NCBI RefSeq assembly: GCF_027111295.1
Contig: NZ_CP114287.1
Span: 5,084,001 to 5,148,000 of the forward strand
Source: Flavobacterium gelatinilyticum
GTDB taxonomy: Bacteria > Bacteroidota > Bacteroidia > Flavobacteriales > Flavobacteriaceae
DNA length: 64,000 nt
Direction: 5' to 3'
Of the stretch, positions 7,291 to 24,492 are shown one piece after another; position 1 is the first letter of the stretch; each line of letters begins with the position of its first letter. The notes beneath the pieces are model-generated. The model ran no database searches. It had not been told where the DNA came from and saw only the letters and a program-made list of their open reading frames with translations. The position numbers and the translations under genes were made by a program.

Positions 7291-8331
7291 TGTAAAGGTT
7301 ACTTATTTCGGTAACGGATTTATCATTTCAATTGGTTTTTTTCCATCAATTCCCTGATGTGGTCTTTCATGATTGTAATAATACAAATATTGTAATAATT
7401 CCTCTTTCAGTTCTTCTTGCGAATCAAAATCAGTATCCCGTAATAAATCCTCTTCGAGAGTTCTCCAAAAACGTTCAACCTTGCCATTTGTCTGCGGACG
7501 GTAAGGTCTTGTGTACCTGTGAACTATTCCTAATTCCATGAGCATTCTTTCAAATGGATGCTGATTTTTTACCTTGCTTGTTTTGATTCCAAATTCAGCC
7601 CCATTATCAGACAATATCTCTTCAAATTTTATTTCATAATGACTGCTTAAGATATTCAAGCACTTTAATGAGGCAAACATTACTGTTAAACTCGTGATGT
7701 CCGGAACTAATTCTGCCCAGGCAATACGGCTGTAATCATCAATTACACAGACTAAATAGAGTTTTTTGTTTTCTCCGCGAATTACGCTTTTGCTTAAATA
7801 ATGACAATCAATATGACCCAGCTGTCCCATTCTTTCTTTGATTATTTTCTGATGATTCTTTTTGATCTTCGGAGTTAATCTGTTTATTTTATGCCGCTTT
7901 AAAATATTGTAAACTCCAGAATATGAGGGTGTGTATTTTCCCAATTTGGGATTTAAGATACTAACAATTTCATATTTATTGTTTCCCTTTTCCCGTAATT
8001 CAACCACTTTTTGTTCTATGAACGGCAAAGGGCGTCTGGTTTTATATTTTGGGCCACGTTTTTGAGGCAGTAAATCTACTGACTTTCCACTTTGTTTATA
8101 TCGATTATAATACTTTAAAAAACTCTTTCTGCAAGTATCATTGGCCGTATAAAAATCCATTGCCTTCTTGTACAAGGGATGGGTCTTGTTTTTAACTTGT
8201 TCATATTCTTTAATTAGAAAACGGTACTTCTCTAAATAGTTTCTTTCCAATGTTGAATCCTGACTATTGTTTCTCATCCCAACAAAATTTATTAAAGTTA
8301 AATTTTGTTACCGAATTATCTAACTTTTACA
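7291..8331 (-). mobile_element. IS481-type insertion sequence, 1041 bp, complete
   Basis: The element has imperfect 25-bp terminal inverted repeats at 7291-7315 (TGTAAAGGTTACTTATTTCG...) and 8307-8331 (inverted TGTAAAAGTTAGATAATTCG...), matching at 21 of 25 positions and both ending in CGGTAAC. It is flanked by a perfect 5-bp direct repeat ATTTC (7286-7290 and 8332-8336), the target duplication. One intact transposase fills it. Intact ends, target duplication and frame suggest a recent, possibly still active insertion. Confidence 0.92.
7303..8277 (-). CDS. IS481-type DDE transposase
   Basis: A 324-residue transposase. The N-terminal part is helix-turn-helix (about 45-130, with the LLPQKRGPKYKTRRP linker). 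The C-terminal part is an rve-type RNase H integrase core with acidic residues D157 (GHIDCHYLSK), D224 (ILSDNGAEFG) and E268 (PQTNGKVERFW). The phrase TRPYRPQTNGKVERFWRTLE is characteristic of IS481 members. The frame is intact and its stop codon lies inside the left terminal repeat. There is no second frame or frameshift signal, unlike IS3 elements. Confidence 0.92.
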   Translation of the reverse strand: MRNNSQDSTLERNYLEKYRFLIKEYEQVKNKTHPLYKKAMDFYTANDTCRKSFLKYYNRYKQSGKSVDLLPQKRGPKYKTRRPLPFIEQKVVELREKGNNKYEIVSILNPKLGKYTPSYSGVYNILKRHKINRLTPKIKKNHQKIIKERMGQLGHIDCHYLSKSVIRGENKKLYLVCVIDDYSRIAWAELVPDITSLTVMFASLKCLNILSSHYEIKFEEILSDNGAEFGIKTSKVKNQHPFERMLMELGIVHRYTRPYRPQTNGKVERFWRTLEEDLLRDTDFDSQEELKEELLQYLYYYNHERPHQGIDGKKPIEMINPLPK

Positions 8332-8479: not shown

Positions 8480-11400
8480 CTATTTACACTTCGCTAATAT
8501 CTCTTTTACTTCTGTCTTGCAGCTGCCGCATCCTAAACCTGCGCCTGTGTTTTTGCATAATTCCGTGAAATCATTGATACCGCTTTTGATGCTTTCTTCG
8601 ATGTTTCCGGCGCCAACCTGACTGCAGGAACAAACCAATTTCCCTAAAACCGGTTTTGTGTTTGAACTTCCTCTTAAAAGCGTATTTCGTTTGTCTGATA
8701 ATTCGATTTTGCTTTCGATCATGGTTTTAAATTCGGCAAACTCATTTTTATCTCCCATTAAAATTGCACCAACCAGAAGGTCATCTTTTACAATACATTT
8801 TTTGTAATAGCGTTTTTTCAAATCAGTAAAAACAATTTCTTCGTACGAATCGTCATTTTCCGGAATTGTGAGATCGCCAATACTGCAAAGATTAATATCT
8901 TCTAATTTTAGAATATTCATTAAAATCGAACCTTTATAATAACTGCTGATATCACCGGCAAGGAAATTCGCCAGAATATTGGCCTGTTCTTCGGCAGCAG
9001 AAGTGATTCCGAATAACTTATTATTGAATTCGGCAATTTCCCCAATCGCAAAAATATCCGGATTTGAAGTTTGCAGGTACTGATTTACTTTCACACCACG
9101 TCCGCAGGCTAAGCCGCTTTCACGTGCAATTTCGATATTTGGAATTGTTCCAATGGTATACACAATTGCATTTGCTGTGATGATTTTACCGCTTTTTAGA
9201 GCAATTTCAATTTCATTCGGATTATCGGTTTCGAAAACAGTGCTGACTTCATTATCAAAATAAATCTGAATATCACGAAGCTGTACTTCTTCGGCTAGTA
9301 ATTTACTTGAAATTCGGTCTAACTGGCGTTCCATTAAACGTGAAGCGCGCTGAATAATCGTAGTTTTTACTTTTTTATGTTTTAAAGCCGCCGCTAATTC
9401 TAATCCTAATAAACCGCCGCCAATAATAACAACATGCTGTTCTTCCGGCGGAAGATTGGTGCTGTCTAAATGTTTTTTCAAGCGATCGGCATCTTCTTTT
9501 CGTCTAACGGTGAATCGACCCGGAAGATGGAGCTGAGCGTTTTCAGGAACAAACGGACGGCTTCCGGTTGCTAAAATCAAAGAATCGTAAGTATGGATTT
9601 CGCCTTCGATGTCTGTGATTGTTTTTTTGCTAGTGTCTATTTTATCAATTGCAGTTCCGGCTTTCATGGTAATTTTTAATTTATTGAAAGTTTCTCCGTC
9701 TTTGACTTTTAAAAGCTGTTCCCAAGTGAATTCTCCTGTCATATATTCCGGAAGCAGAACACGATTGTAAAACGGATTTACTTCATTAGAAAAAACAATA
9801 ATTTCATCATTCGAATTGAATTCGCGGTAATTCTGTATGAATCGGAATGAAGCAGCACCTGCACCAACAATGGCAATTTTTTGAAATGGTTTTACATATT
9901 TTTTAATCGATACGGTTGTGAATTTAAAATCGGGTTCTTTTGAAACCGGATCGACAACGATATTCGTTAAATTGTTGGTTCTGTTTAAATCATTTTCAAG
10001 CTGTTTCCCCCAATGCATCGGCAGGAACAGTACTTTTTCTTTAATCGAATCAGTTACTTTTGCTTTTACGCGTACTTCACCATTTTGGCTTGAAACCACT
10101 ACAATATCTCCATTTTTAATATCGTTTTTAAAAGCATCAATCGGATTTATTTCTAAAACAGGACTCGGGATATGCGTCAATAATCTCGATACTTTTCCAG
10201 TCTTTGTCATTGTATGCCATTGATCACGAACTCTTCCCGTTGTTAAAATAAAAGGAAATTCTTCATTGGGCTGTACGGATGTATTTTCGATTGAAACCGG
10301 AAGATTAAAAATAGCTTTTCCGGATGGGGTATAGAATTTTTTATCTGTAAATAACCTTGGTGTTCCGGGATGATTATAATCGGGAACAGGCCATTGAAAA
10401 GTTCCTTCGTTTTTTAATCGGTTGTAATTCAGGAATGAAATATCAATATTGGTATTTTTAGTAAGTGCACAATGCTCTTTATAAACTTCTTCGGCACTGT
10501 TGAAATTGAACCCGTTGAAATTCATTTTTTTAGCAAAACGAATTAAAATTTCAATATCAGGAAGTGCTTCTCCGGGCGGATTAATTCCTTTTGGCAGATA
10601 CGAAATACGACGTTCCGAATTGGTCATTGTTCCGTCTTTTTCCAGCCATCCGGCGGCGGGCAGTAATAGATCGGCAAATTTGGCCGTATCAGCATTATGC
10701 GAAATATCCTGAACAACGACGAATTTGGCATTTTGAAGCGCTTTTTCTGCTCTTCTCGAATCCGGTAAACTTACTAAAGGATTGGTGCAGATAATCCAGA
10801 CCGCTTTCATTTTTCCCGATTCTAAAGCTTCAAACATTTCTGTTGCTGTTAAACCCGGTTTATCTGAAATTTCGCCAACACCCCAAAAATCAGCTACTTC
10901 TTTGCGATGTGCTGGATTTGCAATGTCTTTATGTGCGGCCAAAAGTGTGGCCATGCCGCCAACTTCACGTCCGCCCATTGCGTTGGGCTGGCCCGTTAAT
11001 GAGAACGGTCCGGAACCCGGTTTTCCAATTTGTCCGGTTAATAAAGACAAATTCAGTAATGCTGTATTTTTATCAACACCAACCGCACTTTGGTTTAATC
11101 CCATTGCCCAAAGAGAAATAAATCCTTTGGCTTTTCCGATGATGTCAGCTGCGAGTTTAATATCGTTTACGGGAATACCGCAGAGTTTGGAAGCTTTTTC
11201 TAAAGAAGTGCCCAAAACTAAATCCTTGTATTGCTTAAAATTTTCGGCGTTGTTTTTTACAAAATCATGATCTACGTACCCTTTTTCGATAATGCGTTTT
11301 GCAATGGCATGATACAATATCACATCAGACCCCGGAATGATCTGTAAATGCAGATCAGAGAAAACAGCGGTATCTGTTCGTCTTGGATCAATGCAGATTA

Positions 11401-11995
11401 TTTTGACTTTCGGATTTTTCTCTTTGTGTTTTTCTAATCTTCTAAAAAGAATAGGGTGGCACCAGGCAGGATTTGCACCCGTTATTAAAAATGTGTCTGC
11501 CAATTCGATATCATCGTAAGCAATTGGAACAGAATCTTCGCCAAAAGTTTTTTTATATCCCACAACTGCAGAACTCATGCAAAGTCTGGAATTGGTGTCG
11601 ATATTATTGGTTTTCAAAAAACCTTTTACGAGTTTGTTGACTAAGTAATATTCCTCGGTTAAACATTGTCCGGAAATATAAAATCCAACACTGTCTGGTC
11701 CATGCTTTTTTATTATTGAAGAAAAAACAGCAGCGGCTCGGTCAAGTGCAGTGTCCCAGCTTACACGTTCCAGCGGATAGGATTTACTGCCCCGCATTTC
11801 GGGATATAAAATTCGGTCTGAAGTGTCATTTACAACGTAATGCAGATTCATTCCTTTAGAACACAACATTCCTTTGTTTACAGGATGGTCTTTGTCGCCT
11901 TCAACCATTACACCGTTTTTAGAATCGTTTGTCACGATAATTCCACAGCCAACACCGCAATAGGAACAGGTAGTTTTTATCTTTTTATTTTGCAT
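8480..11995 (-). CDS. Assimilatory nitrate reductase fused to FAD/NAD(P)H reductase and BFD-type [2Fe-2S] domain
   Basis: A 1171-residue fusion that would reduce nitrate to nitrite in the cytoplasm. Residues 1-~690 are a molybdopterin oxidoreductase of the Nas/NarB/NapA type: [4Fe-4S] ligands C10, C13, C17 and C45, a likely Mo ligand C139 (NSRLCMSSAVV), and a C-terminal molydopterin-binding part (TTGRVRDQWHTMTKTG). Residues ~703-1060 are a NirB/NasB-like FAD/NAD(P)H oxidoreductase with two Rossmann motifs, IVGAGAASF and IIGGGLLGLELAAAL. The end is a BFD-like [2Fe-2S] domain (C1122, C1124, C1156, C1159). NAD(P)H could thus feed nitrate reduction in one chain. Divergent from the Crp/Fnr gene, with NarL-like operators between. 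Confidence 0.9.
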   Translation of the reverse strand: MQNKKIKTTCSYCGVGCGIIVTNDSKNGVMVEGDKDHPVNKGMLCSKGMNLHYVVNDTSDRILYPEMRGSKSYPLERVSWDTALDRAAAVFSSIIKKHGPDSVGFYISGQCLTEEYYLVNKLVKGFLKTNNIDTNSRLCMSSAVVGYKKTFGEDSVPIAYDDIELADTFLITGANPAWCHPILFRRLEKHKEKNPKVKIICIDPRRTDTAVFSDLHLQIIPGSDVILYHAIAKRIIEKGYVDHDFVKNNAENFKQYKDLVLGTSLEKASKLCGIPVNDIKLAADIIGKAKGFISLWAMGLNQSAVGVDKNTALLNLSLLTGQIGKPGSGPFSLTGQPNAMGGREVGGMATLLAAHKDIANPAHRKEVADFWGVGEISDKPGLTATEMFEALESGKMKAVWIICTNPLVSLPDSRRAEKALQNAKFVVVQDISHNADTAKFADLLLPAAGWLEKDGTMTNSERRISYLPKGINPPGEALPDIEILIRFAKKMNFNGFNFNSAEEVYKEHCALTKNTNIDISFLNYNRLKNEGTFQWPVPDYNHPGTPRLFTDKKFYTPSGKAIFNLPVSIENTSVQPNEEFPFILTTGRVRDQWHTMTKTGKVSRLLTHIPSPVLEINPIDAFKNDIKNGDIVVVSSQNGEVRVKAKVTDSIKEKVLFLPMHWGKQLENDLNRTNNLTNIVVDPVSKEPDFKFTTVSIKKYVKPFQKIAIVGAGAASFRFIQNYREFNSNDEIIVFSNEVNPFYNRVLLPEYMTGEFTWEQLLKVKDGETFNKLKITMKAGTAIDKIDTSKKTITDIEGEIHTYDSLILATGSRPFVPENAQLHLPGRFTVRRKEDADRLKKHLDSTNLPPEEQHVVIIGGGLLGLELAAALKHKKVKTTIIQRASRLMERQLDRISSKLLAEEVQLRDIQIYFDNEVSTVFETDNPNEIEIALKSGKIITANAIVYTIGTIPNIEIARESGLACGRGVKVNQYLQTSNPDIFAIGEIAEFNNKLFGITSAAEEQANILANFLAGDISSYYKGSILMNILKLEDINLCSIGDLTIPENDDSYEEIVFTDLKKRYYKKCIVKDDLLVGAILMGDKNEFAEFKTMIESKIELSDKRNTLLRGSSNTKPVLGKLVCSCSQVGAGNIEESIKSGINDFTELCKNTGAGLGCGSCKTEVKEILAKCK

Positions 11996-12050: not shown

Positions 12051-12090
12051 TACGTATACAAAAATACGTATTTTTACGTATTTATACGTA
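12051..12090. promoter_or_regulatory. Cluster of NarL-like operators between nitrate reductase and crp/fnr genes
   Basis: A perfect inverted repeat TACGTAT-TT-ATACGTA (12075-12090) has the 7-2-7 spacing of NarL/NarP sites. A second pair, TACGTAT (12051-12057) and ATACGTA (12064-12070), is inverted with a 6-bp gap. Candidate -7 boxes are TACTTTTG at 12109-12116 for the plus-strand gene and CAAAAATA (TATTTTTG on the minus strand) at 12059-12066. The operator centre is about 40 bp upstream of the predicted plus-strand start site. Binding is inferred, not shown. Confidence 0.7.
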
Positions 12091-12171: not shown

Positions 12172-12879
12172 ATGAAAGAAGAGCAAATGACTTGTTATTC
12201 CTGCACCAATGAAAATTGTTTAATTAAGAAGCATCTGCATTTGGAACAGATGCGTGCCTATGTTTTAAAAAAACAAAATATAAGTTGTAGAAAGTCAAAT
12301 CGGTTTATCACTGAAGGCGCGCCTTTGCATGGTCTCTATTTTATTTGTAAAGGCAAAGTCAAAACGGTAAAAACAGGAATCAACGGCCGTGAGCAGATTG
12401 TTCGCCTGACCAGAAACGGCGATATTATTGGTTTTCGCGGATTCGGAACTAGTAAACGTTACTTAATTGGTGCTTATGCACTCGAAGATACCGTTTTGTG
12501 TAATTTTAGTAATGAGACCATGCTCGAAATTTTACAGCAGATTCCCGAATTTACCTATGCCTTGATGTTGTTTTATGCAGATGAATTAAATAAAAGTGAA
12601 AACAATATTCGCAAAATAGCACACATGAATGTCCGCGAACGTGTAATTGATTTGCTGCTTTATATTCATCGTAAATTCGGACAGGTGAATGGTTTAATTG
12701 ATATTGAACTTTCGCGGAAAGAAATTGCAGATTTTGCAGGAACTACTGAGGAACAGGCAATTCGAATTATATCCGGTTTAAAAAGAGAAGCATTGATTAA
12801 AACCGAAGGAAAACGTGTCGGGATTTTAGAAATTTCAGAATTAAGATCTGAAATTATGGAGCATAAATATTTTTGTTGA
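12172..12879 (+). CDS. Crp/Fnr family transcriptional regulator with N-terminal cysteine cluster
   Basis: A 235-residue regulator. A cyclic-nucleotide-binding-type sensor domain (about 25-150) leads to a dimerisation helix and a Crp-type winged helix (about 165-230) with recognition segment DIELSRKEIADFAGTTEEQAIRIISGLKREALI. The N-terminus carries C8-x2-C11-x4-C16, with another Cys at 39. This resembles, but does not equal, the C-x2-C-x5-C of FNR, so an Fe-S redox or O2/NO sensor is possible. It is divergent from the nitrate reductase and shares its operator region, so it probably belongs to the nitrate/nitrite response. Confidence 0.88.
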   Translation: MKEEQMTCYSCTNENCLIKKHLHLEQMRAYVLKKQNISCRKSNRFITEGAPLHGLYFICKGKVKTVKTGINGREQIVRLTRNGDIIGFRGFGTSKRYLIGAYALEDTVLCNFSNETMLEILQQIPEFTYALMLFYADELNKSENNIRKIAHMNVRERVIDLLLYIHRKFGQVNGLIDIELSRKEIADFAGTTEEQAIRIISGLKREALIKTEGKRVGILEISELRSEIMEHKYFC

Positions 12880-15895: not shown

Positions 15896-17365
15896 TCAGT
15901 TATCAATATTTAATACAAGTCTTTTATTGTTTATTTTTTTAGTAATTGTGTAGTGCATCCAGATCAGGCAGAAGATTGAAAACAACAGGATAAAAATCCA
16001 GGAACTTGACCAAATGCCTGTTGCTGTTAGTAAATATCCGAAAATTATAGGACCAAAAAAACCTCCCAAACCTCCAATCATACCCACCATACCGCCTACA
16101 ACACCTACTTCTGTCGGGAAATATTCCGGAATATGTTTGTAAACCGCCGCTTTTCCAATTCCCCAGGAAATTCCAATTAAGATTACTAATATAAGAAAAA
16201 TCCACATATTGGCATCAAACTTAATAACGGTAATGCCTTTTGCAATTAATTCTTTTTTTGCAATGTTTTGATTTTGAGTTACTACAACATCCTGCCAGCT
16301 TGATGAGGTTGGAAAAATGGTATTCTCATCTACGATTGCCGCTTTCTGCATAATAGGATATTCTTTATCTCCCACTTTTACGGTTTTGGAGTTGACCTCA
16401 TTGACCATTCCTTTTTTAGCAGCCAGTATTCCGGGACCGGCAGTTGTAATTTCCATTTTCGGAACCATTAATAAAGCGCTTAAAATTACAGATGAACCTA
16501 AAACCCAATACATTACTTTTCTGGCCCCGAATTTATCAGATAAATATCCTCCAAAAGCCCTAATTACTCCGGAAGGTAAGCTGAACATGGTTGCAAATAA
16601 ACCACCCATAACTAAGCTCGTTTGATAAACATTCATAAAGTTGGGTAAAAGCCATTGAGAATATGCTACAAAGCAGCCAAAAACTAAAAAGTAATACGCT
16701 CCAAAACGCCAGACTCTTTGTGATTTTAAAGGCGTAAGCATTTGCGAGACACTTTTTGTATTATTTTCTATTTTTTTGTTTTGAGCGAAAATTAAAAACG
16801 CAACACCTATTATAACTAATGAAATAGCATAAATAACAGGCAGAACTTTCCATCCGTTTTGCGGATCATTAATTGAAAAATGATTTAATAAAGAAGGGGC
16901 TAAAAAAGTTGTAATTGCAGCACCGGCATTTCCCATTCCGAAGATTCCCAGCGCGCGGCCTTGCCATTCTTTTGGATACCAAATAGAGGTGTAGCCAATT
17001 CCGACAGCGAAACTGGTTCCGACCATTCCGAAGAAGAAACTAAGTATAGCAAACATCAAGAAACTATCAGCGTAGGGAAGGAGAAATAGCGGAATTGCAC
17101 TGAGTAATAATAAAAGGGAAAACACATATTTTCCGCCAAACTTATCCGTCAGGATTCCGATTGGGAGACGCATTACGGATCCCGTTAAAATTGGAATACC
17201 CAAAAGCCATCCAACCTGAATCACGTTCCAATGGAAAATTCCGTTATCGACTAAAAAGGTTACTAAAACTCCGTTTAGTGTCCAGCAGGCAAAACACACT
17301 GTAAATGCCAATGTGTTCAAAAATAAAATTTTATGGGATTGCGATAGTGAGTTTGTATTTTTCAT
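15896..17365 (-). CDS. NarK/NasA-type nitrate/nitrite MFS transporter
   Basis: A 489-residue inner-membrane carrier with about 12 membrane helices. It has NarK-family features: the early WTLNGVLVTFLVDNGIFHW, the arginine in the first half (GSVMRLPIGILTDKFGGKYVF), the nitrate signature-like GMGNAGAAITTFLAP, and its second-half counterpart GGMVGMIGGLGGFFGP. An extra soluble segment (about residues 305-375, with VNSKTVKVGDKEYPIMQKA) is inserted between helices in the second half and is unusual in length. A perfect 28-bp palindrome with a NarL-like core lies upstream. It supplies the nitrate reductase and NirBD. Confidence 0.92.
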   Translation of the reverse strand: MKNTNSLSQSHKILFLNTLAFTVCFACWTLNGVLVTFLVDNGIFHWNVIQVGWLLGIPILTGSVMRLPIGILTDKFGGKYVFSLLLLLSAIPLFLLPYADSFLMFAILSFFFGMVGTSFAVGIGYTSIWYPKEWQGRALGIFGMGNAGAAITTFLAPSLLNHFSINDPQNGWKVLPVIYAISLVIIGVAFLIFAQNKKIENNTKSVSQMLTPLKSQRVWRFGAYYFLVFGCFVAYSQWLLPNFMNVYQTSLVMGGLFATMFSLPSGVIRAFGGYLSDKFGARKVMYWVLGSSVILSALLMVPKMEITTAGPGILAAKKGMVNEVNSKTVKVGDKEYPIMQKAAIVDENTIFPTSSSWQDVVVTQNQNIAKKELIAKGITVIKFDANMWIFLILVILIGISWGIGKAAVYKHIPEYFPTEVGVVGGMVGMIGGLGGFFGPIIFGYLLTATGIWSSSWIFILLFSIFCLIWMHYTITKKINNKRLVLNIDN

Positions 17366-17436
17366 AGCACTTATATTTTTATGTAAAAATAAGTACTATG
17401 ACTTAGTTAAAACCTGCTAAAACGCAGTTTTTAGAA

Positions 17437-17464
17437 AATAATTACGTATTAATACGTAATTATT
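17437..17464. promoter_or_regulatory. Perfect 28-bp palindrome with NarL-like 7-2-7 core
   Basis: The centre TACGTAT-TA-ATACGTA (17443-17458) is flanked by further matching bases to give 14-bp arms without mismatch. It lies 72 bp upstream of the transporter start, immediately beyond the stop codon of the response regulator gene. It is probably the binding site of that regulator, controlling the transporter. Confidence 0.75.
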
Positions 17465-17465
17465 C

Positions 17466-18125
17466 TTAAATTAACGAATACTCAGCCGCCTTATTAGAAA
17501 GTTCCATTAAGTTTTTTACTTTCAGTTTTTTCATCAAGTTAAAACGGTGTACTTCGGCTGTTCTCTTACTGATGTCTAAAGCTTCTGCAATTTCTTTATT
17601 TCCCTTTCCTGATAATAAAAGTGTAAGGATTTCTTTTTCTCTTTTTGTAATCATCATTTCTTCACCCAAAGTTTGTTTAGGTTCTAATGATGCAGACGAG
17701 TTTGTCAATTGACCAATTAAGATTGAAGAAATGTCGCCGCTAAAATATTTTCCTCCAGCAGAAACACTGTGAAGTGCTTTTAGAAATTCTTCTTTTGAAG
17801 AACCTTTTAGTAAATAACCATCGGCTCCGGCTTTTATAGATTTCAATACATATTCTTCCGATTCGTGCATCGAAAGCATAATGATTTTTACACTATTATT
17901 TTCGCTTCTAAGTTTTTCTACTAGTTCGATACCAGTAAGATTTGGCATTCTAATATCAGCTATAAGTAAATCCGGTTTTGTTTCGCCAACCACTTCAAGT
18001 GCATCTGCACCATCAATAGCTTCGCCTACAACCTCGATGTTTGCTTCGTTTTCCAGTAAAGATTTGATTCCGTCTCGAACAAAAACATGGTCATCTGCTA
18101 ATACTACACGAATGATATTACTCAT
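17466..18125 (-). CDS. NarL/FixJ-type response regulator, probably nitrate-responsive
   Basis: A 219-residue regulator. The receiver (1-~120) has acidic residues in VVLADDHVFVRDG, the phosphoacceptor Asp in DLLIADIRMPNLTG (near 56), Thr/Ser in IMLSMHES and the conserved Lys in GYLLKGSSKEE. The LuxR-type helix-turn-helix (~152-215) is MITKREKEILTLLLSGKGNKEIAEALDISKRTAEVHRFNLMKKL. Its neighbours are the nitrate transporter downstream and a NarX-like kinase upstream on the same strand, so it is the likely NarL/NreC equivalent. The two are separated by ~600 bp of repeats. Confidence 0.9.
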   Translation of the reverse strand: MSNIIRVVLADDHVFVRDGIKSLLENEANIEVVGEAIDGADALEVVGETKPDLLIADIRMPNLTGIELVEKLRSENNSVKIIMLSMHESEEYVLKSIKAGADGYLLKGSSKEEFLKALHSVSAGGKYFSGDISSILIGQLTNSSASLEPKQTLGEEMMITKREKEILTLLLSGKGNKEIAEALDISKRTAEVHRFNLMKKLKVKNLMELSNKAAEYSLI

Positions 18126-18153: not shown

Positions 18154-18192
18154 TACGTATATTCATCTATAAAGAAGATGCTAATATACGTA
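18154..18192. promoter_or_regulatory. Two inverted NarL-like half-sites upstream of the response regulator
   Basis: TACGTATAT at 18154-18162 and ATATACGTA at 18184-18192 are inverted with a 21-bp gap, just upstream of the regulator's start codon. They use the same heptamer as the 7-2-7 sites but not its spacing, so autoregulation is plausible but weaker. Confidence 0.55.
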
Positions 18193-18724: not shown

Positions 18725-20533
18725 TTATTTTAGAATTGGGATGTTGAACGTAATCCTAGTTCCTTCTCCAGGAATCGAATTCATAAACACACGACCATTA
18801 ATGTATTGGATTCTTTCTTTCATGAATAAAAGTCCCATTCCGGATTCGCTGTTGCGTTTTTTGTCGACTGAATTAACGTCGAAGCCTTTTCCGTTGTCGT
18901 CTACTATGATACTTAGAAGTGTTTCGCTATGCGAAAGTTGTACAATAATATGTGACGATTCGGCGTATTTTATGGCGTTGTTAATTGCTTCTTGCGTAAG
19001 ACGGTAAATATTGATTTCGATTAAGGAATCTAAACGCTGGTCAAAATCGGTTTTATTGTAAAAAAGGATTTCTTTTCCGGTTAGTTTAGAAAGTTCCTGT
19101 GTCAATTTTGAAAGCGACGAAACGATTCCGTGATCGCTCAATTCCGGAGGCATCAGGTTGAAAGTTGCCGTGCGGACACCTTTTATAATATCCAAAGAAA
19201 GCTTCTTTAAATACTCAATTTTTTGCTCCGATTTTTCTCTGTCATCCAGATTGATGCTTTCTAAACTGAATTTTAATCCCGTCAGCATTTGGCCGATTCC
19301 GTCGTGAATTTCTTTGGCGATTCGGTTTTGTTCGTTTTCTTGATTTTCAACGATTTTGCTCGAAATAATCTTCTGCTGATTGATTTTTTCGGTTGTGTTT
19401 TCAAGGTTCAAACGTTCCACTTCACGTTGTGCTTTTTTGCGTTCGGTGATGTTGAAACAAACGATTAAAAGCTCCAATTCGTCTTTTTTGATCATTACGG
19501 GAACCATCGACAAATCGAGCCAGATTTCTTTTTCGTCTTTATTGATGATTTTCATTTCGCCCTGCCAGCCACTTCTTTGTTTTTCGAAGATTAAACGGTC
19601 AAAATTAAGCTGTTCTTTTTCATCTTCTGTTAGTACTTCAGAGAATTTTTTGTTGGATGAAAACTTGGTGTAATTTAAAAGTTTGGCGAATTTTTCTCCG
19701 ATATGAATGATCGAACCGTCTGGCGTAATTCGGCAATAGAGAAGCGTATTTTCCATTGCATAATTGAGCGATTTTAACTCTTTTACCGAGTTTTCCTTGA
19801 TTTCGCTTAATATTTCGGTGTCGTATGCGAGTTTTAAAGCTTTCTTTTCTGAAGACAGAAGTTTGGCAATTAATCTTTCGATTTTCTTGTTGGTTGGTTT
19901 GAAAATGAAGAAGAATTCTAAAAGCAGAACCAAAAGGGTAAAACCGAAAATCCAATATTCGATTCGGCGTTGTTCGGTTACTTTTTCGTGTGCTTCAAGA
20001 TCGTATTGCGTTACAATCTGATTCATTTTTGAAAGGAAAACCCCTTCGTTTTTCAATATGATCTGAACCAGTTTTTGGTTTTCAATTTTCTTGTTTTTAT
20101 CTTTTAAGTTTGAAATTAATATATGAGAAGCATTGAAAATTCTATTAAAATTTGGTTCTATTTCAAGATATAATCGATTTAAGATTTCACTTTTTTGATG
20201 TGGAAAACCCAAACTGTCACTTCCGTTTTCAAGTGCATCATGATTGTCTTTCCAAAGTTTTAAAACCTCTTTTAAGTGCGAAGTTTTTTTGGCTGTAGCC
20301 GAATCTGAAACGTAATGTAAAATCAGTACTTCTTTGACAATTTTCTGGCTCAGCATTCTCTGTTTTCCAGAAAAATTGATAATCTTAGAATCGCTTAATT
20401 GCTGATTCAGATTGTATTGTACCAAAAACTGACTAATAATTATGGTTAAGGCAATAGTAAGAAGCGCAAAAAAATACAGTCGGCGTAAATTTTTGAAAGT
20501 AATTTTTTCTGCTTCTTGATTGTCCTTTTTCAT
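18725..20533 (-). CDS. NarX-like sensor histidine kinase (PilJ/NarX sensor, PAS, HisKA_3)
   Basis: A 602-residue membrane kinase. The first helix (about 17-37) leads to a periplasmic helical sensor of the PilJ_N/NarX type, with the P-box-like segment KIINFSGKQRMLSQKIVKE (about 56-74). A second helix (YWIFGFTLLVLLLEFFFIF, about 197-215), a PAS domain (about 255-370, ending NITERKKAQ), and a HisKA_3 dimerisation domain with AKEIHDGIGQMLTGL (phospho-His near 410) follow. The ATPase domain has EAINNAIKYA, VDDNGKGFD and GMGLLFMKERI. The P-box resemblance suggests nitrate/nitrite sensing; partner is the NarL-like regulator. It ends 5 bp before DUF4202. Confidence 0.88.
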   Translation of the reverse strand: MKKDNQEAEKITFKNLRRLYFFALLTIALTIIISQFLVQYNLNQQLSDSKIINFSGKQRMLSQKIVKEVLILHYVSDSATAKKTSHLKEVLKLWKDNHDALENGSDSLGFPHQKSEILNRLYLEIEPNFNRIFNASHILISNLKDKNKKIENQKLVQIILKNEGVFLSKMNQIVTQYDLEAHEKVTEQRRIEYWIFGFTLLVLLLEFFFIFKPTNKKIERLIAKLLSSEKKALKLAYDTEILSEIKENSVKELKSLNYAMENTLLYCRITPDGSIIHIGEKFAKLLNYTKFSSNKKFSEVLTEDEKEQLNFDRLIFEKQRSGWQGEMKIINKDEKEIWLDLSMVPVMIKKDELELLIVCFNITERKKAQREVERLNLENTTEKINQQKIISSKIVENQENEQNRIAKEIHDGIGQMLTGLKFSLESINLDDREKSEQKIEYLKKLSLDIIKGVRTATFNLMPPELSDHGIVSSLSKLTQELSKLTGKEILFYNKTDFDQRLDSLIEINIYRLTQEAINNAIKYAESSHIIVQLSHSETLLSIIVDDNGKGFDVNSVDKKRNSESGMGLLFMKERIQYINGRVFMNSIPGEGTRITFNIPILK

Positions 20534-20538
20534 ATTTT

Positions 20539-21123
20539 TTACAATCCTAAAGAAGCTTTTATTAGGTTTAAGTTTTCTTCAGAATAGTTGATTTTTAGAG
20601 CTTCCTGATGTCCTTTGTCCGACATTTTATCCCAAGTTTTCTTGATGATGTTTTTCAGTTTTTCATCATCATGTTTTTCTACAAAAGGTTCTAAGTAGTA
20701 TTCTAAAAATACCAAACAAATTACATCCTCTAATAATTGGGTCTCGGCGTCTTTTTTAAGTAATTTTTTTTCAATTAAGAAAGAAACACGATCGATAAAA
20801 GTTTGATTATATCCGGCTTTTTCTAATATTCCGGCAGTAGTTTTGGCGTGGAATTTTTTTAGTTCTTCTCTCCATTTTAAGTAACCAATACGATCCATCG
20901 GATAGGATTCGCGTGCCACTTTCCAACGACAGATGTGCTGTGCTTTTGAGGCAATCTGAACTTCTTCTGAAGCGTTTGGTTCAAACTGCATCAGTTTTTC
21001 ATACATCCTGTTTGAATACAGTAATTCTTTTGGATATTCTGTGTTTTGGTCTAATTCGATATTCGGATCTTGAGCATTTTCAGCATCAATCCATTCACTT
21101 GCTTTTTGAAAAGGTGTAGTCAT
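20539..21123 (-). CDS. DUF4202 domain-containing protein
   Basis: A 194-residue cytoplasmic protein I match to DUF4202 (for example FQKASEWIDAENAQDPN at the start and the His/Arg-bearing AQHICRWKVARESYPMDRIGYLKWR). The conserved His and Asp residues and all-helical look recall HD-type enzymes, but this is inference. DUF4202 genes are often seen beside nitrate/nitrite reductase genes, as here, between nirD and the sensor kinase, from which it is separated by only 5 bp. Function unknown. Confidence 0.85.
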   Translation of the reverse strand: MTTPFQKASEWIDAENAQDPNIELDQNTEYPKELLYSNRMYEKLMQFEPNASEEVQIASKAQHICRWKVARESYPMDRIGYLKWREELKKFHAKTTAGILEKAGYNQTFIDRVSFLIEKKLLKKDAETQLLEDVICLVFLEYYLEPFVEKHDDEKLKNIIKKTWDKMSDKGHQEALKINYSEENLNLIKASLGL

Positions 21124-21280: not shown

Positions 21281-21658
21281 CTAATCTACGAACCCCACAA
21301 AAACTTCGTTTTCTACAATCTTAACAGGGTACGTTGCAATACTGTAATCTTCACCGTTTAAGTTTGAACCATCAACCAATGAAAATGTTTTTTTATGCAT
21401 CGGGCAGGCGATTTTCGGAATATCATCAGCAGAACCTGTCATTCCTCTTGAAAGCACCATTTCCATTTTGTGCGGACATGCATTTTGGCAAGCGTACCAT
21501 GCATTACGACGGGCAAAATTGAAAATTGCAATTTGCTTGTTTTTGTATTTGATGCATCCGCCTCGGTTGGTTGGAAAATCTTCTACTTTACCAGCTTTGA
21601 ACCAAATTGTTGCGTCGCTTGCGTGAACTGTTTCGTATTGATTTAAGATTTCTTCCAT
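21281..21658 (-). CDS. nirD: Nitrite reductase small subunit NirD (Rieske-type)
   Basis: The 125-residue partner of NirB in NAD(P)H-dependent nitrite reduction to ammonium in the cytoplasm. It has the Rieske-like fold and keeps complete cluster ligands: C-P-H in QNACPHKM (near 63) and C-P-M-H in IACPMHKKTF (near 88). Enteric NirD lacks these, so here it can probably bind a [2Fe-2S] cluster. It follows nirB by 260 bp holding a palindromic repeat; DUF4202 and the sensor kinase come next on the same strand. Confidence 0.93.
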   Translation of the reverse strand: MEEILNQYETVHASDATIWFKAGKVEDFPTNRGGCIKYKNKQIAIFNFARRNAWYACQNACPHKMEMVLSRGMTGSADDIPKIACPMHKKTFSLVDGSNLNGEDYSIATYPVKIVENEVFVGFVD

Positions 21659-21918: not shown

Positions 21919-24432
21919 CTAAGACCAAGCTTTTGGCATCTTTTGATCTCTTAACGGAACAAAAGCGATATTGTCGTCTTTTTCGTCAGAGTTTACGAAA
22001 TGGTTGAAACGTTTCATTAATCTTGGTTTTTCCAGAACTTGTTTCCATTCGCATTCGAAAGTGTTAACCATAGTCTGCATTTCAGCTTCAAGGGTTTCGC
22101 AGATTCCTAAACTGTCTTCGATGATTACTTGTTTTAAATATTCTAAACCTCCATCTAGTTTTTCTAGCCAAGTTGAAGTTCTAATCAGTGGACCAGCAGT
22201 GCGGATGTAATACATTAAAAAACGATCCATGTATTTAATTACGGTTTCTTTGTCGATTTTCTCGGCCAAAAGAACCGCGTGTTTTGGATTTGCCCCGCCA
22301 TTTCCGGCGATGTATAAATTCCATCCGCCTTCAACAGCGATTAATCCGAAATCTTTTCCGCGTGCTTCGGCGCATTCGCGAATACAGGCCGAGACTCCGC
22401 CTTTTAATTTATGCGGAGAACGAATTCCTTTGTATCTGTTTTCTAGTTCGATGGCAAATCCGGCGCTGTCGTCCATTCCGTAACGGCACCAGGCATTTCC
22501 AACACAACTTTTTACGGCACGAAGCGATTTTCCGTAAGCGTGACCGCTTTCAAAACCATTATCGATTAAGATTTTCCAGATTTTTGGCAAATCACTTAAA
22601 TGTGCTCCAAATAAATCAACTCTTTGTGCTCCGGTGATTTTTGTGTATAAATCGAATTGTTTGGCTACTTCGCCAATTACGATTAATTTCTCTGCAGTAA
22701 TTTCACCTCCAGCCACTCTTGGAACAACAGAATACGTTCCGTTTCGTTGAATATTAGCCAAAAATCTATCGTTTGTATCTTGAGTCGTTACGTGTTTATT
22801 CGCTGTATCATTGTAAATACTGGAGAAAATAGAAGCAACAACTGGTTTGCAGACTTCGCATCCGTCGCCTTTTCCGTGATGATCCAGAACGTCGTAGAAA
22901 TTCTCGTATTTATTGATTTTTACTAAATCGAATAATTCCTGACGTGTATAGCTGAAGTGCTCGCAGATTACTTCTTTTACTTCTTTTCCTAAAGATTTTT
23001 GAGTTGCTTTTACCAAATCAGAAACCATTGGTTTACAGCCTCCACAACCAGAAGTTGCCTTTGTAGCTTTTACAACATCTGAAAAAGTAGCACAAGATTC
23101 GTCTAAAATTTTACAGCAGATAGCACCTTTCGTCACATTTTCGCAAGAACAGATTACGGCTGTGTCTGGCAAATCCATTACGCTTCCTAAAGATGAGCCT
23201 TCAGAACCGTCGCGTGAACCTAAAATCAAATCTTCCGGATTTTTAGGTAATGCCATTTCGTTAATATAAATCTGAAAAAGGGAACCGTAATCGCTGGAAT
23301 CTCCGACTAAAATCCCGCCCAATAAAGTTTTAGAATCTTTGGTAACATTTATTCTTTTATAAATTCCGCTTAATTTGTTTTCGTAAACAATGGCAGTAAC
23401 ATGTTCATTTTCAATAAAAGGATCACCAAAACTTGCCACTTCAACACCAATCAATTTCAATTGTGTCGACATATCGATGGTTTCTCTCATGGTTTTATCA
23501 CCATTGAGGATTTGCTCAGCGGCTACATCGGCCATTTCGTAACCTGGAGCAACAAGTCCGTAAATGTTTTGGTTGTAAAGAGCCGCTTCGCCAATCGCAA
23601 AAATAGAAGGATCTGATGTTCGCATTTGATTGTTTACCACAATTCCGCCTCTTACGCCAACTTCAAGCCCTGAAACTCTGGCCAGTTCGTCGCGAGGTTT
23701 TATTCCGGCAGATATAACCAGCATGTCTACTTTTAACAATTCGTCGTTTGCAAACATCATTCCTGTTATACTTTCCTTTCCGTCAATATATTGCGTTGCT
23801 TTGTTTAGATGAATTCCGATATTTAATTCTTCTATTTTTGATTGAAGCATATCGCTTGCACCCTGATCCAATTGTCTCGGCATCAAACGTGGCGCAAATT
23901 CTACCACATGCGGATTCAATCCTAAATCCCGAACTGCTTTTGCAGCTTCTAATCCTAATAAGCCTCCGCCTAAAACTGCCGCTTCAGTAGCGCCTTTTTG
24001 TTTTATTTTTTTGGCGTAAGTCATAATCGCGTCCAGATCTTCGATGGTTCTGTATACAAAAACGCCTTCTTTTTCGACCCCTTCAATTGGAGGAACAAAA
24101 GCCGAAGAACCGGTTGCTAAAACTAAGTAATCGTACGTATGTGTTTTGCCTAAGTGTGTATGTATTGTTTTTACATCACGATTTATATCTGTAATTAACT
24201 CAGATGTGTTTAGAATAATATTGTTTTCTGCGTACCATTCGGTTGTTGATAAAGATAAATCATCTGCCGTCTTTCCTCCAAAGTATTCGCTTAAGTGAAC
24301 GCGATCGTAAGCTCTTCGCGGTTCTTCACCAAATACCGTGATCTGATACTTTTCCTGTCCTGATTTTGCAATGAATTTTTCGCAAAATTTATAACCAACC
24401 ATGCCGTTTCCAACTACTATTACTCTAATCAT
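21919..24432 (-). CDS. nirB: Nitrite reductase large subunit NirB, NAD(P)H-dependent
   Basis: An 837-residue cytoplasmic enzyme reducing nitrite to ammonium with NAD(P)H. Domains in order: FAD/NAD oxidoreductase (1-~400; VVGNGMVGYKF and VLGGGLLGLEAAKAV), two BFD-like [2Fe-2S] segments (ICSCENVTKGAIC and GCGGCKP; then GDGCEVCKP), then a siroheme reductase domain. The siroheme/4Fe-4S ligands are present near 640-690: SCVGNAWC (C-x5-C) and ACIRECAEARG (C-x3-C). Length is typical. The upstream region contains NarL-like sites. The fused nitrate reductase of this window carries the same FAD and BFD modules, which suggests an origin by domain recruitment. Confidence 0.96.
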   Translation of the reverse strand: MIRVIVVGNGMVGYKFCEKFIAKSGQEKYQITVFGEEPRRAYDRVHLSEYFGGKTADDLSLSTTEWYAENNIILNTSELITDINRDVKTIHTHLGKTHTYDYLVLATGSSAFVPPIEGVEKEGVFVYRTIEDLDAIMTYAKKIKQKGATEAAVLGGGLLGLEAAKAVRDLGLNPHVVEFAPRLMPRQLDQGASDMLQSKIEELNIGIHLNKATQYIDGKESITGMMFANDELLKVDMLVISAGIKPRDELARVSGLEVGVRGGIVVNNQMRTSDPSIFAIGEAALYNQNIYGLVAPGYEMADVAAEQILNGDKTMRETIDMSTQLKLIGVEVASFGDPFIENEHVTAIVYENKLSGIYKRINVTKDSKTLLGGILVGDSSDYGSLFQIYINEMALPKNPEDLILGSRDGSEGSSLGSVMDLPDTAVICSCENVTKGAICCKILDESCATFSDVVKATKATSGCGGCKPMVSDLVKATQKSLGKEVKEVICEHFSYTRQELFDLVKINKYENFYDVLDHHGKGDGCEVCKPVVASIFSSIYNDTANKHVTTQDTNDRFLANIQRNGTYSVVPRVAGGEITAEKLIVIGEVAKQFDLYTKITGAQRVDLFGAHLSDLPKIWKILIDNGFESGHAYGKSLRAVKSCVGNAWCRYGMDDSAGFAIELENRYKGIRSPHKLKGGVSACIRECAEARGKDFGLIAVEGGWNLYIAGNGGANPKHAVLLAEKIDKETVIKYMDRFLMYYIRTAGPLIRTSTWLEKLDGGLEYLKQVIIEDSLGICETLEAEMQTMVNTFECEWKQVLEKPRLMKRFNHFVNSDEKDDNIAFVPLRDQKMPKAWS

Positions 24433-24464
24433 GATTTCTTTGTTTAAGTATTACTACGCAAATA

Positions 24465-24492
24465 TAAGTATTTATACTTATTTTTATACGTA
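24465..24492. promoter_or_regulatory. NarL-like operator upstream of nirB
   Basis: TAAGTAT-TT-ATACTTA (24465-24480) is a perfect inverted repeat with 7-2-7 spacing. A further ATACGTA half-site follows at 24486-24492 and GTATACGTAC at 24551-24560. A minus-strand -7-like box, TATATTTG (24459-24466), overlaps the palindrome edge, so the position relative to the start site differs from the nitrate reductase operator. Inferred only. Confidence 0.6.

Follow-up and report, generated by a model that had tools for sequence, protein, structure and literature searches.

The window, the whole stretch of 64,000 nucleotides analysed here from positions 5,084,001-5,148,000 of contig NZ_CP114287.1 of Flavobacterium gelatinilyticum, holds a block of nitrate genes in the order nasC, divergent crp, methyltransferase, DUF6896, alginate-export porin, narK, response regulator, histidine kinase, DUF4202, nirD and nirB. 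The nasC gene (8480..11995, minus strand) encodes a molybdoenzyme resembling nitrate reductase, to which an NADH oxidoreductase half of NirB type is fused, with NCBIfam matches under the curated cut-offs, as is the case for several matches in the block. Beside it lies crp (12172..12879, plus strand), which encodes a Crp/Fnr-family regulator to be considered both as a target and as a rival binder. Further along, all on the minus strand, are the genes for a narK-like nitrate/nitrite transporter (15896..17365; TIGR00886 at 188 bits, cut-off 312), a response regulator with receiver and GerE helix-turn-helix domains (17466..18125; helix SKRTAEVHRFNLMKKL), which is the proposed binder, a histidine kinase with a PilJ/NarX-like sensor (INFSGKQRMLSQ), PAS, HisKA_3 and HATPase_c (18725..20533), a DUF4202 protein (20539..21123), a nirD-like Rieske protein (21281..21658) and the nirB nitrite reductase, recognised by its Pfam domains (21919..24432). 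In the 1171-residue NasC the NirB-like NADH/FAD and BFD half is fused on as if the enzyme carried its own NADH dehydrogenase. The DUF4202 gene is found between nirD and the kinase gene in most of the fetched loci, and an integrase-core (rve) transposase gene occupies 7303-8277, between a rubredoxin-domain protein gene and nasC.

The initial annotation had placed NarL-like operators between these genes, and its account of the letters is borne out. Perfect TACGTAT-NN-ATACGTA repeats stand exactly where it had put them, at 12075..12090 (TACGTATTTATACGTA), between the divergent nasC and crp, and at 17443..17458 (TACGTATTAATACGTA), 77 bp upstream of the narK ATG. The third dyad, TAAGTATTTATACTTA at 24465..24480 in the nirB promoter, again perfectly inverted, differs from the exact motif by two letters and represents the same element; its end lies 32 bp from the ATG. 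The three are intergenic and upstream of nasC/crp, narK and nirB, and the six additional half-sites (12051, 12064, 18154, 18186, 24486 and 24553) are all present. A second dyad with one mismatch (TACGTATTTTTACGTA, 12065..12080), absent from that annotation, overlaps the first 10 bp on and has its end abutting the nasC -7 box. Regarding the single heptamers, TACGTAT at 24486..24492 (minus strand) starts 12 bp upstream of the start of the nirB dyad, and another heptamer (24445..24451, plus strand) lies downstream of the nirB -7 box; in the regulator gene's own promoter, one heptamer (18186..18192, minus strand) runs into TATATTAG (18181-18188), and a second, inverted one (18154..18160, plus strand) is located between this promoter and the regulator gene. 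A degenerate promoter-proximal pair at narK (TAAGTCATAGTACTTA, 17390..17405, minus strand) was read from the sequence and aligned across loci. A short hairpin read by eye (17409..17432, minus strand) lies between dyad and promoter of narK and may serve as terminator for the regulator gene. Four dyads with up to two mismatches were counted in the window against a shuffle mean of 0.12, and for TACGTAT the count is 19, with 4.5 expected; neither number was reached in any of 100 shuffles.

The whole genome, a single contig of 5,832,845 bases, was scanned with the reversed pattern as control. In this genome the strict motif proved to be rare and associated with nitrate genes: exact TACGTAT-NN-ATACGTA has two copies, both in the window, and the control has none. 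The relaxed consensus TAMGTAWWWWTACKTA is found eight times, against zero for the control and around 0.9 expected from the base composition of the window. These copies are distributed over seven loci, namely nasC/crp (two overlapping), narK, nirB, a modE-like gene, moeA and two non-nitrate loci: a site that precedes an sdhC-like gene by about 107 bp (3842035; the label is our own reading, not from the scan) and one inside an ORF of 949 residues. When up to two mismatches are allowed, the genome as a whole shows no excess (20 matches versus 24 for the control), and therefore the specificity is limited to the strict form.

Conservation of the element was followed through 199 genomes of the genus, 53 of which contain the exact motif and two the reversed control. 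The regulator is found in 59 of them, the kinase in 57 (split in G057 and partial in G149), nasC in 56 and crp in 51. The perfect motif is present in 40 of the 59 regulator-bearing genomes versus 13 of the 140 regulator-less ones, with G149 counted as regulator-bearing on a 58% match and its dyads being of another promoter type. Stray copies of the dyad also occur in regulator-bearing genomes, for instance at L112 in G180. In the fetched loci, to which the fragmented regulator-bearing genomes G003, G031, G046, G062 and G074 do not contribute, and in the window, TAMGTAT-NN-ATACKTA with at most one mismatch precedes nirB in 28/28 cases, narK in 48/48, nasC in 44/45 and crp in 34/42. The same dyad is absent from the 225 upstream regions of regulator, kinase, nirD, DUF4202, META, MT and rubredoxin genes; it precedes DUF6896 in 0/2 and the porin gene in 2/22 cases. 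All 28 nirB dyads stand 31 or 32 bp from the ATG. A second set was composed of 80 loci of named genomes (1.55 Mb), whose species overlap with those of the first; L235, from Flavobacterium johnsoniae strain CI04, has the locus with four sites. Here, 239 of the 248 exact relaxed sites stand upstream of nirB, narK, nasC or crp at no more than 200 bp, and the remaining nine lie elsewhere in the loci, none of them inside mapped genes. With at most one mismatch, upstream regions were matched at nirB in 77/77 and at narK in 72/72 cases, and the same element precedes nasC in 55/55; when scored alongside 100 scrambled dyads, the dyad matched 194 of these 204 regions and any scrambled version at most two. 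Since the loci are mostly close kin, the counts overstate independence. The perfect copy is missing from 19 of the 59 regulator-bearing genomes; among the 16 of these that were fetched, the nitrate block has relaxed copies in 13 and none in the other three, G004, G057 and G159, which have lost nasC.

The polarity of the element was determined in 294 distinct upstream regions. Being self-complementary, TACGTA could equally form a direct repeat, but the asymmetric TAAGTA variant reveals an inverted one: TAAGTA-N4-TACTTA was counted 99 times, the direct forms TAAGTA-N4-TAAGTA and TACTTA-N4-TACTTA zero and eight times, respectively, and the everted form never. The only other common spacing of the inverted form is 14 (33 cases), and pairs of heptamers in direct or everted arrangement appear at further spacings because of the extra heptamers. 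These polarity and spacing counts correspond to the 7-2-7 inverted spacing of NarL/NarP operators. Position 3 of the half-site is A in 46% of 357 sites, and the comparative consensus reads TAMGTAT-WW-ATACKTA rather than the TACGTAT-only form. The regulator promoter was rejected as a full-dyad target within the genus (0/52 and 0/73 upstream regions); it bears single conserved heptamers instead, with a TAMGTAT half-site within 120 bp in 52/52 and 73/73 upstream regions.

Beyond the genus, the kinase (E <= 1e-70) and NirB (E <= 1e-200) are found in an identical set of 27 among 346 genomes of the order, and not one of the 346 has nirB without the kinase, the case wanted as a negative control. Eleven loci from other genera and families were collected, and the nirB upstream region was captured in nine of them. 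Eight of the nine, where NirB is 63-67% identical, carry the exact relaxed site and the ninth a site with one mismatch, so the motif accompanies nitrate-gene orthologues in related genomes both within the genus and outside it. In five loci of other genera (L125, L127, L130, L133 and L134), dyads with one mismatch also stand upstream of the regulator. Seven other-genus regulators were captured whole (54-60% identical); six of them keep the helix RTAEVHR[FY]NLMKKL, and the one from L130 has RTVETHRFNLMRKM.

Molybdenum genes extend the list of putative targets. The moeA gene at 5,048,711, outside the window, is preceded by TAAGTAAAAATACTTA and then TATTTG, the same composite as at nirB. It heads genes matching MobA, uroporphyrinogen-III methyltransferase, MoaD, MoeB, MoaE, MoaC/MoaB and MoaA (the MobA, MoaD and MoaE matches being under cut-off), and the operon lies downstream of genes for a NasC-like reductase and a NarK-like carrier. 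Among its orthologues (n=24, 62-100% identical; three of the 33 moeA-positive genomes, for which no locus was returned, are not included), the site is present in 19/19 from genomes with regulator and nasC (17 exact, two with one mismatch), and in 1/5 from genomes lacking either (G004 has it; G057, G159, G099 and G175 do not). The site is absent from all six moeA paralogues of about 45% identity. The modE-like gene, whose ModE domain model scores 88 bits under a cut-off of 98.5, adjoins genes for a TonB receptor and a molybdopterin-domain protein and is found in 15 of 30 genomes. Its 14 orthologues (at least 82% identity) all have a site with at most one mismatch to the strict form, 13 of them exact in the relaxed form; the fifteenth gene (42% match, L155) has no site and was omitted from the orthologue count. 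Just upstream of the moeA Moco/siroheme operon there is a second nitrate reductase cluster (L163:1154-16726; G000:C1:5039500-5058500), with a NasC-like catalytic subunit, a ferredoxin, a Rieske protein, a NarK-type carrier and perhaps a second carrier.

From these sequence comparisons, the adjacent NarL/FixJ-family regulator is very probably the protein that binds the dyads. Within the block, the other candidate is the Crp/Fnr-family protein whose gene lies at 12172: this gene adjoins the strongest site cluster, and Crp/Fnr proteins bind short inverted repeats. The regulator is present in 50 of the 51 crp-bearing genomes, and presence alone therefore barely separates the two proteins. The decisive cases are the nine regulator-bearing genomes without a Crp orthologue at E <= 1e-40, a cut-off that could miss a diverged copy. 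Four of them (G008, G102, G103 and G121) retain dyads at both nasC and narK; in the two of these four with nirB captured the nirB dyad is exact in one and has one mismatch in the other, and the fragmented G140 retains its dyad at nirB. The other Crp-less genomes, G004, G057, G149 and G159, have lost nasC. Because the four Crp-less genomes keep their sites, Crp was ruled out as main binder in favour of the regulator, a choice also favoured by the resemblance of the latter to FixJ described below, and the Crp/Fnr protein is left as a very unlikely binder. Binding by the regulator combined with the proposed target set, the sign of control apart, is a likely reading of the comparisons.

Similar dyads are also found in genomes without this regulator. 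Thirteen such genomes carry perfect dyads, and the analysis covered the sites of all but G037, G090, G092, G134 and G189. In the 68%-complete G181 a perfect dyad lies between nasC and crp, assigned by coordinates only. In the seven covered among the other 12 the dyads lie at unrelated genes, and other proteins can therefore use such a site. Most dyads in these seven genomes have a different promoter form, just before TTG, and some are near other LuxR-type regulators. All this would be expected if the dyad were a general promoter motif, or the site of another LuxR-type regulator, that stands at nitrate genes by coincidence. Nevertheless, the presence of nitrate or molybdenum genes at five of the seven loci in the source genome, the concentration of 239 of 248 sites at four nitrate-block promoters and the contrast at moeA between genomes with the nitrate system (19/19) and without it (1/5) argue against coincidence and make it extremely unlikely. 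Regarding the promoter form of these other dyads, in the regulator-less genomes and in G149 TACGTAT-WW-ATACGTA stands mostly just before TTG, some 20 bp ahead of a TAnnTTTG-like box (L057:5497-5545, L058, L137-L140 (G061); L045-L049 (G016); L050-L054 (G149); L059-L064). G061 has 26 sites, and the 16 listed form eight pairs 33 bp apart. One dyad pair precedes a Hachiman HamAB pair, and another site (L064) precedes RteC. A defence regulon in G061 was considered and rejected, as PADLOC matched two (HamA and HamB) of ten dyad-near proteins in G061 and G016 and none of the other eight.

The regulator itself combines features of NarL and FixJ. It has the receiver and GerE domains of the NarL/FixJ family, and its best solved match over the full length is NarL; for the DNA-binding domain, EsrB comes first, followed by FixJ (1x3u), ahead of NarL (1je8). 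With 160 bits it falls under the 250-bit cut-off of the NarL equivalog PRK10651, and the MctR model gives 192 versus 300. Its recognition helix reads RTAEVHR, versus RTVEVHR in FixJ and STVKVHV in NarL, and lysines of the NarL helix contact bases. The enteric heptamer TACYYMT described for NarL/NarP (PMC4886647) was discarded, as TACGTAT breaks it at position 4 and TAAGTAT at positions 3 and 4. FixJ selects GTAMGTAG and GTAGTTTCCC in SELEX and binds the 16-bp site TAAGTAATTTCCCTTA at fixK (PMC4999443); by comparison, GTAMGTAG and TAAGTAATTTCCCTTA share the TAMGTA core, and TAAGTAATTTCCCTTA also shares the 7-2-7 frame. The element thus combines the letters of a FixJ site with the layout of a NarL operator. 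Like FixJ of rhizobia, the system has the half-site (GTAMGTAG/TAAGTAA there), the 7-2-7 layout, the EVHR helix and a Crp/Fnr gene, as fixK, among its targets. However, FixL senses oxygen through haem (PMC4999443) and the kinase here has a PAS_9 domain and an N-terminal sensor of nitrate type; in addition, the site is a clean palindrome and the targets differ. The comparison suggests a half-site rule, an EVHR helix reading TAMGTA, common to FixJ and a Bacteroidota regulator.

With the enteric NarX-NarL/NarQ-NarP systems it shares a PilJ/NarX-type sensor, a HisKA_3 kinase, a receiver-GerE regulator, 7-2-7 inverted heptamers and nitrate targets. It departs from them in the heptamer (TAMGTAT instead of TACYYMT), in the helix (TAEVHRF instead of TVKVHVK), in a sensor followed by PAS with no HAMP or GAF match in Pfam, in operators merged with the -7 box and in its assimilatory targets. 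The initial annotation had proposed that the NarL-like regulator controls this set through TACGTAT heptamers, as a local version of the enteric design. Control through heptamers is backed by the comparison as a probable reading, with the half-site amended to TAMGTAT; the enteric design is not supported, in view of that heptamer, the EVHR helix and the fusion of heptamers to the -7 box, as well as of a wider set that takes in the Moco/siroheme operon, the modE-like gene and, through half-sites, the regulator's own promoter.

The sensor kinase matches PilJ, HisKA_3, HATPase_c and PAS_9 in Pfam, with no HAMP or GAF match. The motif INxSGxQRMxSQ, in keeping with a NarX/PilJ-type sensor with a G-x-x-R pocket, is present in 80/80 genus kinases, INFSGKQRMLSQ being the window copy. 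INxxGRQR is kept in 8/11 other-genus kinases, those of L130 and L131 departing after it, and the other three (L133-L135) match only from residue 171 or later. The N-box [IVL]-[ND]-x-A-G-x-Q-R-M-L-[ST]-Q of the PilJ domain of the nitrate chemoreceptor McpN (PMC6381276) is a pattern common to the genus kinases, in which a nitrate pocket is predicted accordingly. Unlike in McpN, serine replaces the alanine of the pattern in all 80, and the protein is a kinase and not a chemoreceptor. Nitrate kinases have been described in Bacteroidetes, some of them with PAS and lacking HAMP and GAF, with genes named narHK/narRR (PMC8199190); the pair studied here is of the same kind, with a PAS-containing, predicted nitrate-sensing kinase, in Flavobacteriales and near nitrate genes. 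The operator, the target list and the direction of control are proposed here and are not given in the consulted part of that 2021 review, where the role of nitrate kinases across organisms and the signalling of the GAF-less Bacteroidetes ones are listed as open. A literature search over titles and abstract starts found no published operator, target set or promoter geometry for this kinase/regulator pair. The pair was already known in Bacteroidetes; the operator, targets and promoter geometry appear to be new. The missing half would be supplied by a candidate operator, a target list reaching the Moco/siroheme genes and a geometry of the promoters from which the sign of control can be predicted.

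At the promoter level, transcripts of F. psychrophilum show a -7 box TAnnTTTG at -12 to -5, a median leader of 24 bases and 5.5% of leaderless mRNAs (PMC9723704). In the nitrate block, the last TA of the dyad or heptamer is the TA of a predicted box of this kind. For nasC the box is TATTTTTG (12059..12066, minus strand), whose TA ends the dyad 12065-12080; for narK it is TATTTTTA (17384..17391, minus strand; A for consensus G), which has its TA in common with a heptamer; and for nirB it is TATATTTG (24459..24466, minus strand), which has its TA in common with the dyad. In the 80 loci, the join ACKTA-nn-TTT[G/A] appears at nirB in 76/77, narK in 71/72 and nasC in 55/55 upstream regions, over a background in the same scan of 10/47 for crp, 14/75 for DUF4202, 6/77 for the kinase, 2/57 for META and zero for the others. 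It is also found at nirB in 8/9 loci of other genera and families, and in most regulator genes it takes the form TATATTAG, 48/52 having TT[TA][GA]. From the end of the predicted box to the ATG, the main classes measure 25-27 bp at nirB and 17-21 bp at narK. The dyad-adjacent TTTG was also considered as a -33 element, but in the main classes of narK and nirB it stands only 17-27 bp from the ATG; because of this distance and of the scarcity of leaderless mRNAs (5.5%, PMC9723704), it was assigned to the -7 element. No clear -33 TTG was seen by eye at these promoters. Relative to the predicted start, the nirB dyad spans around -26 to -11 and the nasC dyads -36 to -11. The narK dyad of the window lies at around -70, with the weak pair at the -7 box, and in four narK regions the dyad is found 36-37 bp from the ATG instead. 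At crp the dyad is upstream of the likely -7 box (our own reading, not from the scan). In 11 moeA promoters the full dyad comes after the -7 box and covers the predicted start; nine of these also have a TACKTA core before the box.

In the mechanism proposed here, a membrane kinase with a predicted nitrate pocket of NarX/McpN type would signal to the NarL/FixJ-family regulator encoded alongside, and a dimer of the latter would bind TAMGTAT-WW-ATACKTA. The targets would be nasC, crp, narK, nirB, the regulator's own gene (through half-sites), the moeA-led Moco/siroheme operon and the modE-like gene. The bound regulator would mainly keep the sigma factor off these promoters and nitrate would lift the block, the nitrate-bound kinase removing the repressing form so that nitrate acts as an inducer. 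Since the operator forms part of the core promoter, its last TA being that of the -7 box, and since sites cover the core promoter from either side, repression relieved by nitrate appears to fit best and is given a little better than an even chance, on the assumption that nitrate induces these genes. The narK dyad some 70 bp upstream of the predicted start, the crp dyad upstream of its likely -7 box and the lack of a clear -33 TTG weigh against repression. These two dyads would suit a nitrate-dependent activator: the same regulator at the same sites, differing in the sign of control only, would replace the missing -33 contact. This reading is kept for want of a -33 TTG visible by eye, and nitrate assimilation genes are usually nitrate-induced. 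On the other hand, at nirB, at nasC and at some of the moeA promoters the dyads reach to around -11, and in the 11 moeA promoters mentioned they cover the predicted start, a position from which activators rarely work; activation is accordingly considered a credible reading of somewhat lower than even probability. Under repression, a particular form of core-promoter gating can be put forward tentatively, at just short of even odds: regulator and sigma factor would compete for the same TA, and nitrate would jointly release nitrate and nitrite reduction, Moco and siroheme synthesis. If true, gating would be the reverse of nitrate-activated NarL control, and a dyad moved across the -7 box, as at moeA, would retain control.

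Some genomes have kept only remnants of the block. In G004 and G159 the fetched block is without nasC, narK and nirB and retains DUF4202 and the regulator. In the decayed nitrate loci L108 (G057), L105 (G004) and L106 (G159), the kinase is broken or absent, and the regulator and the porin are retained.
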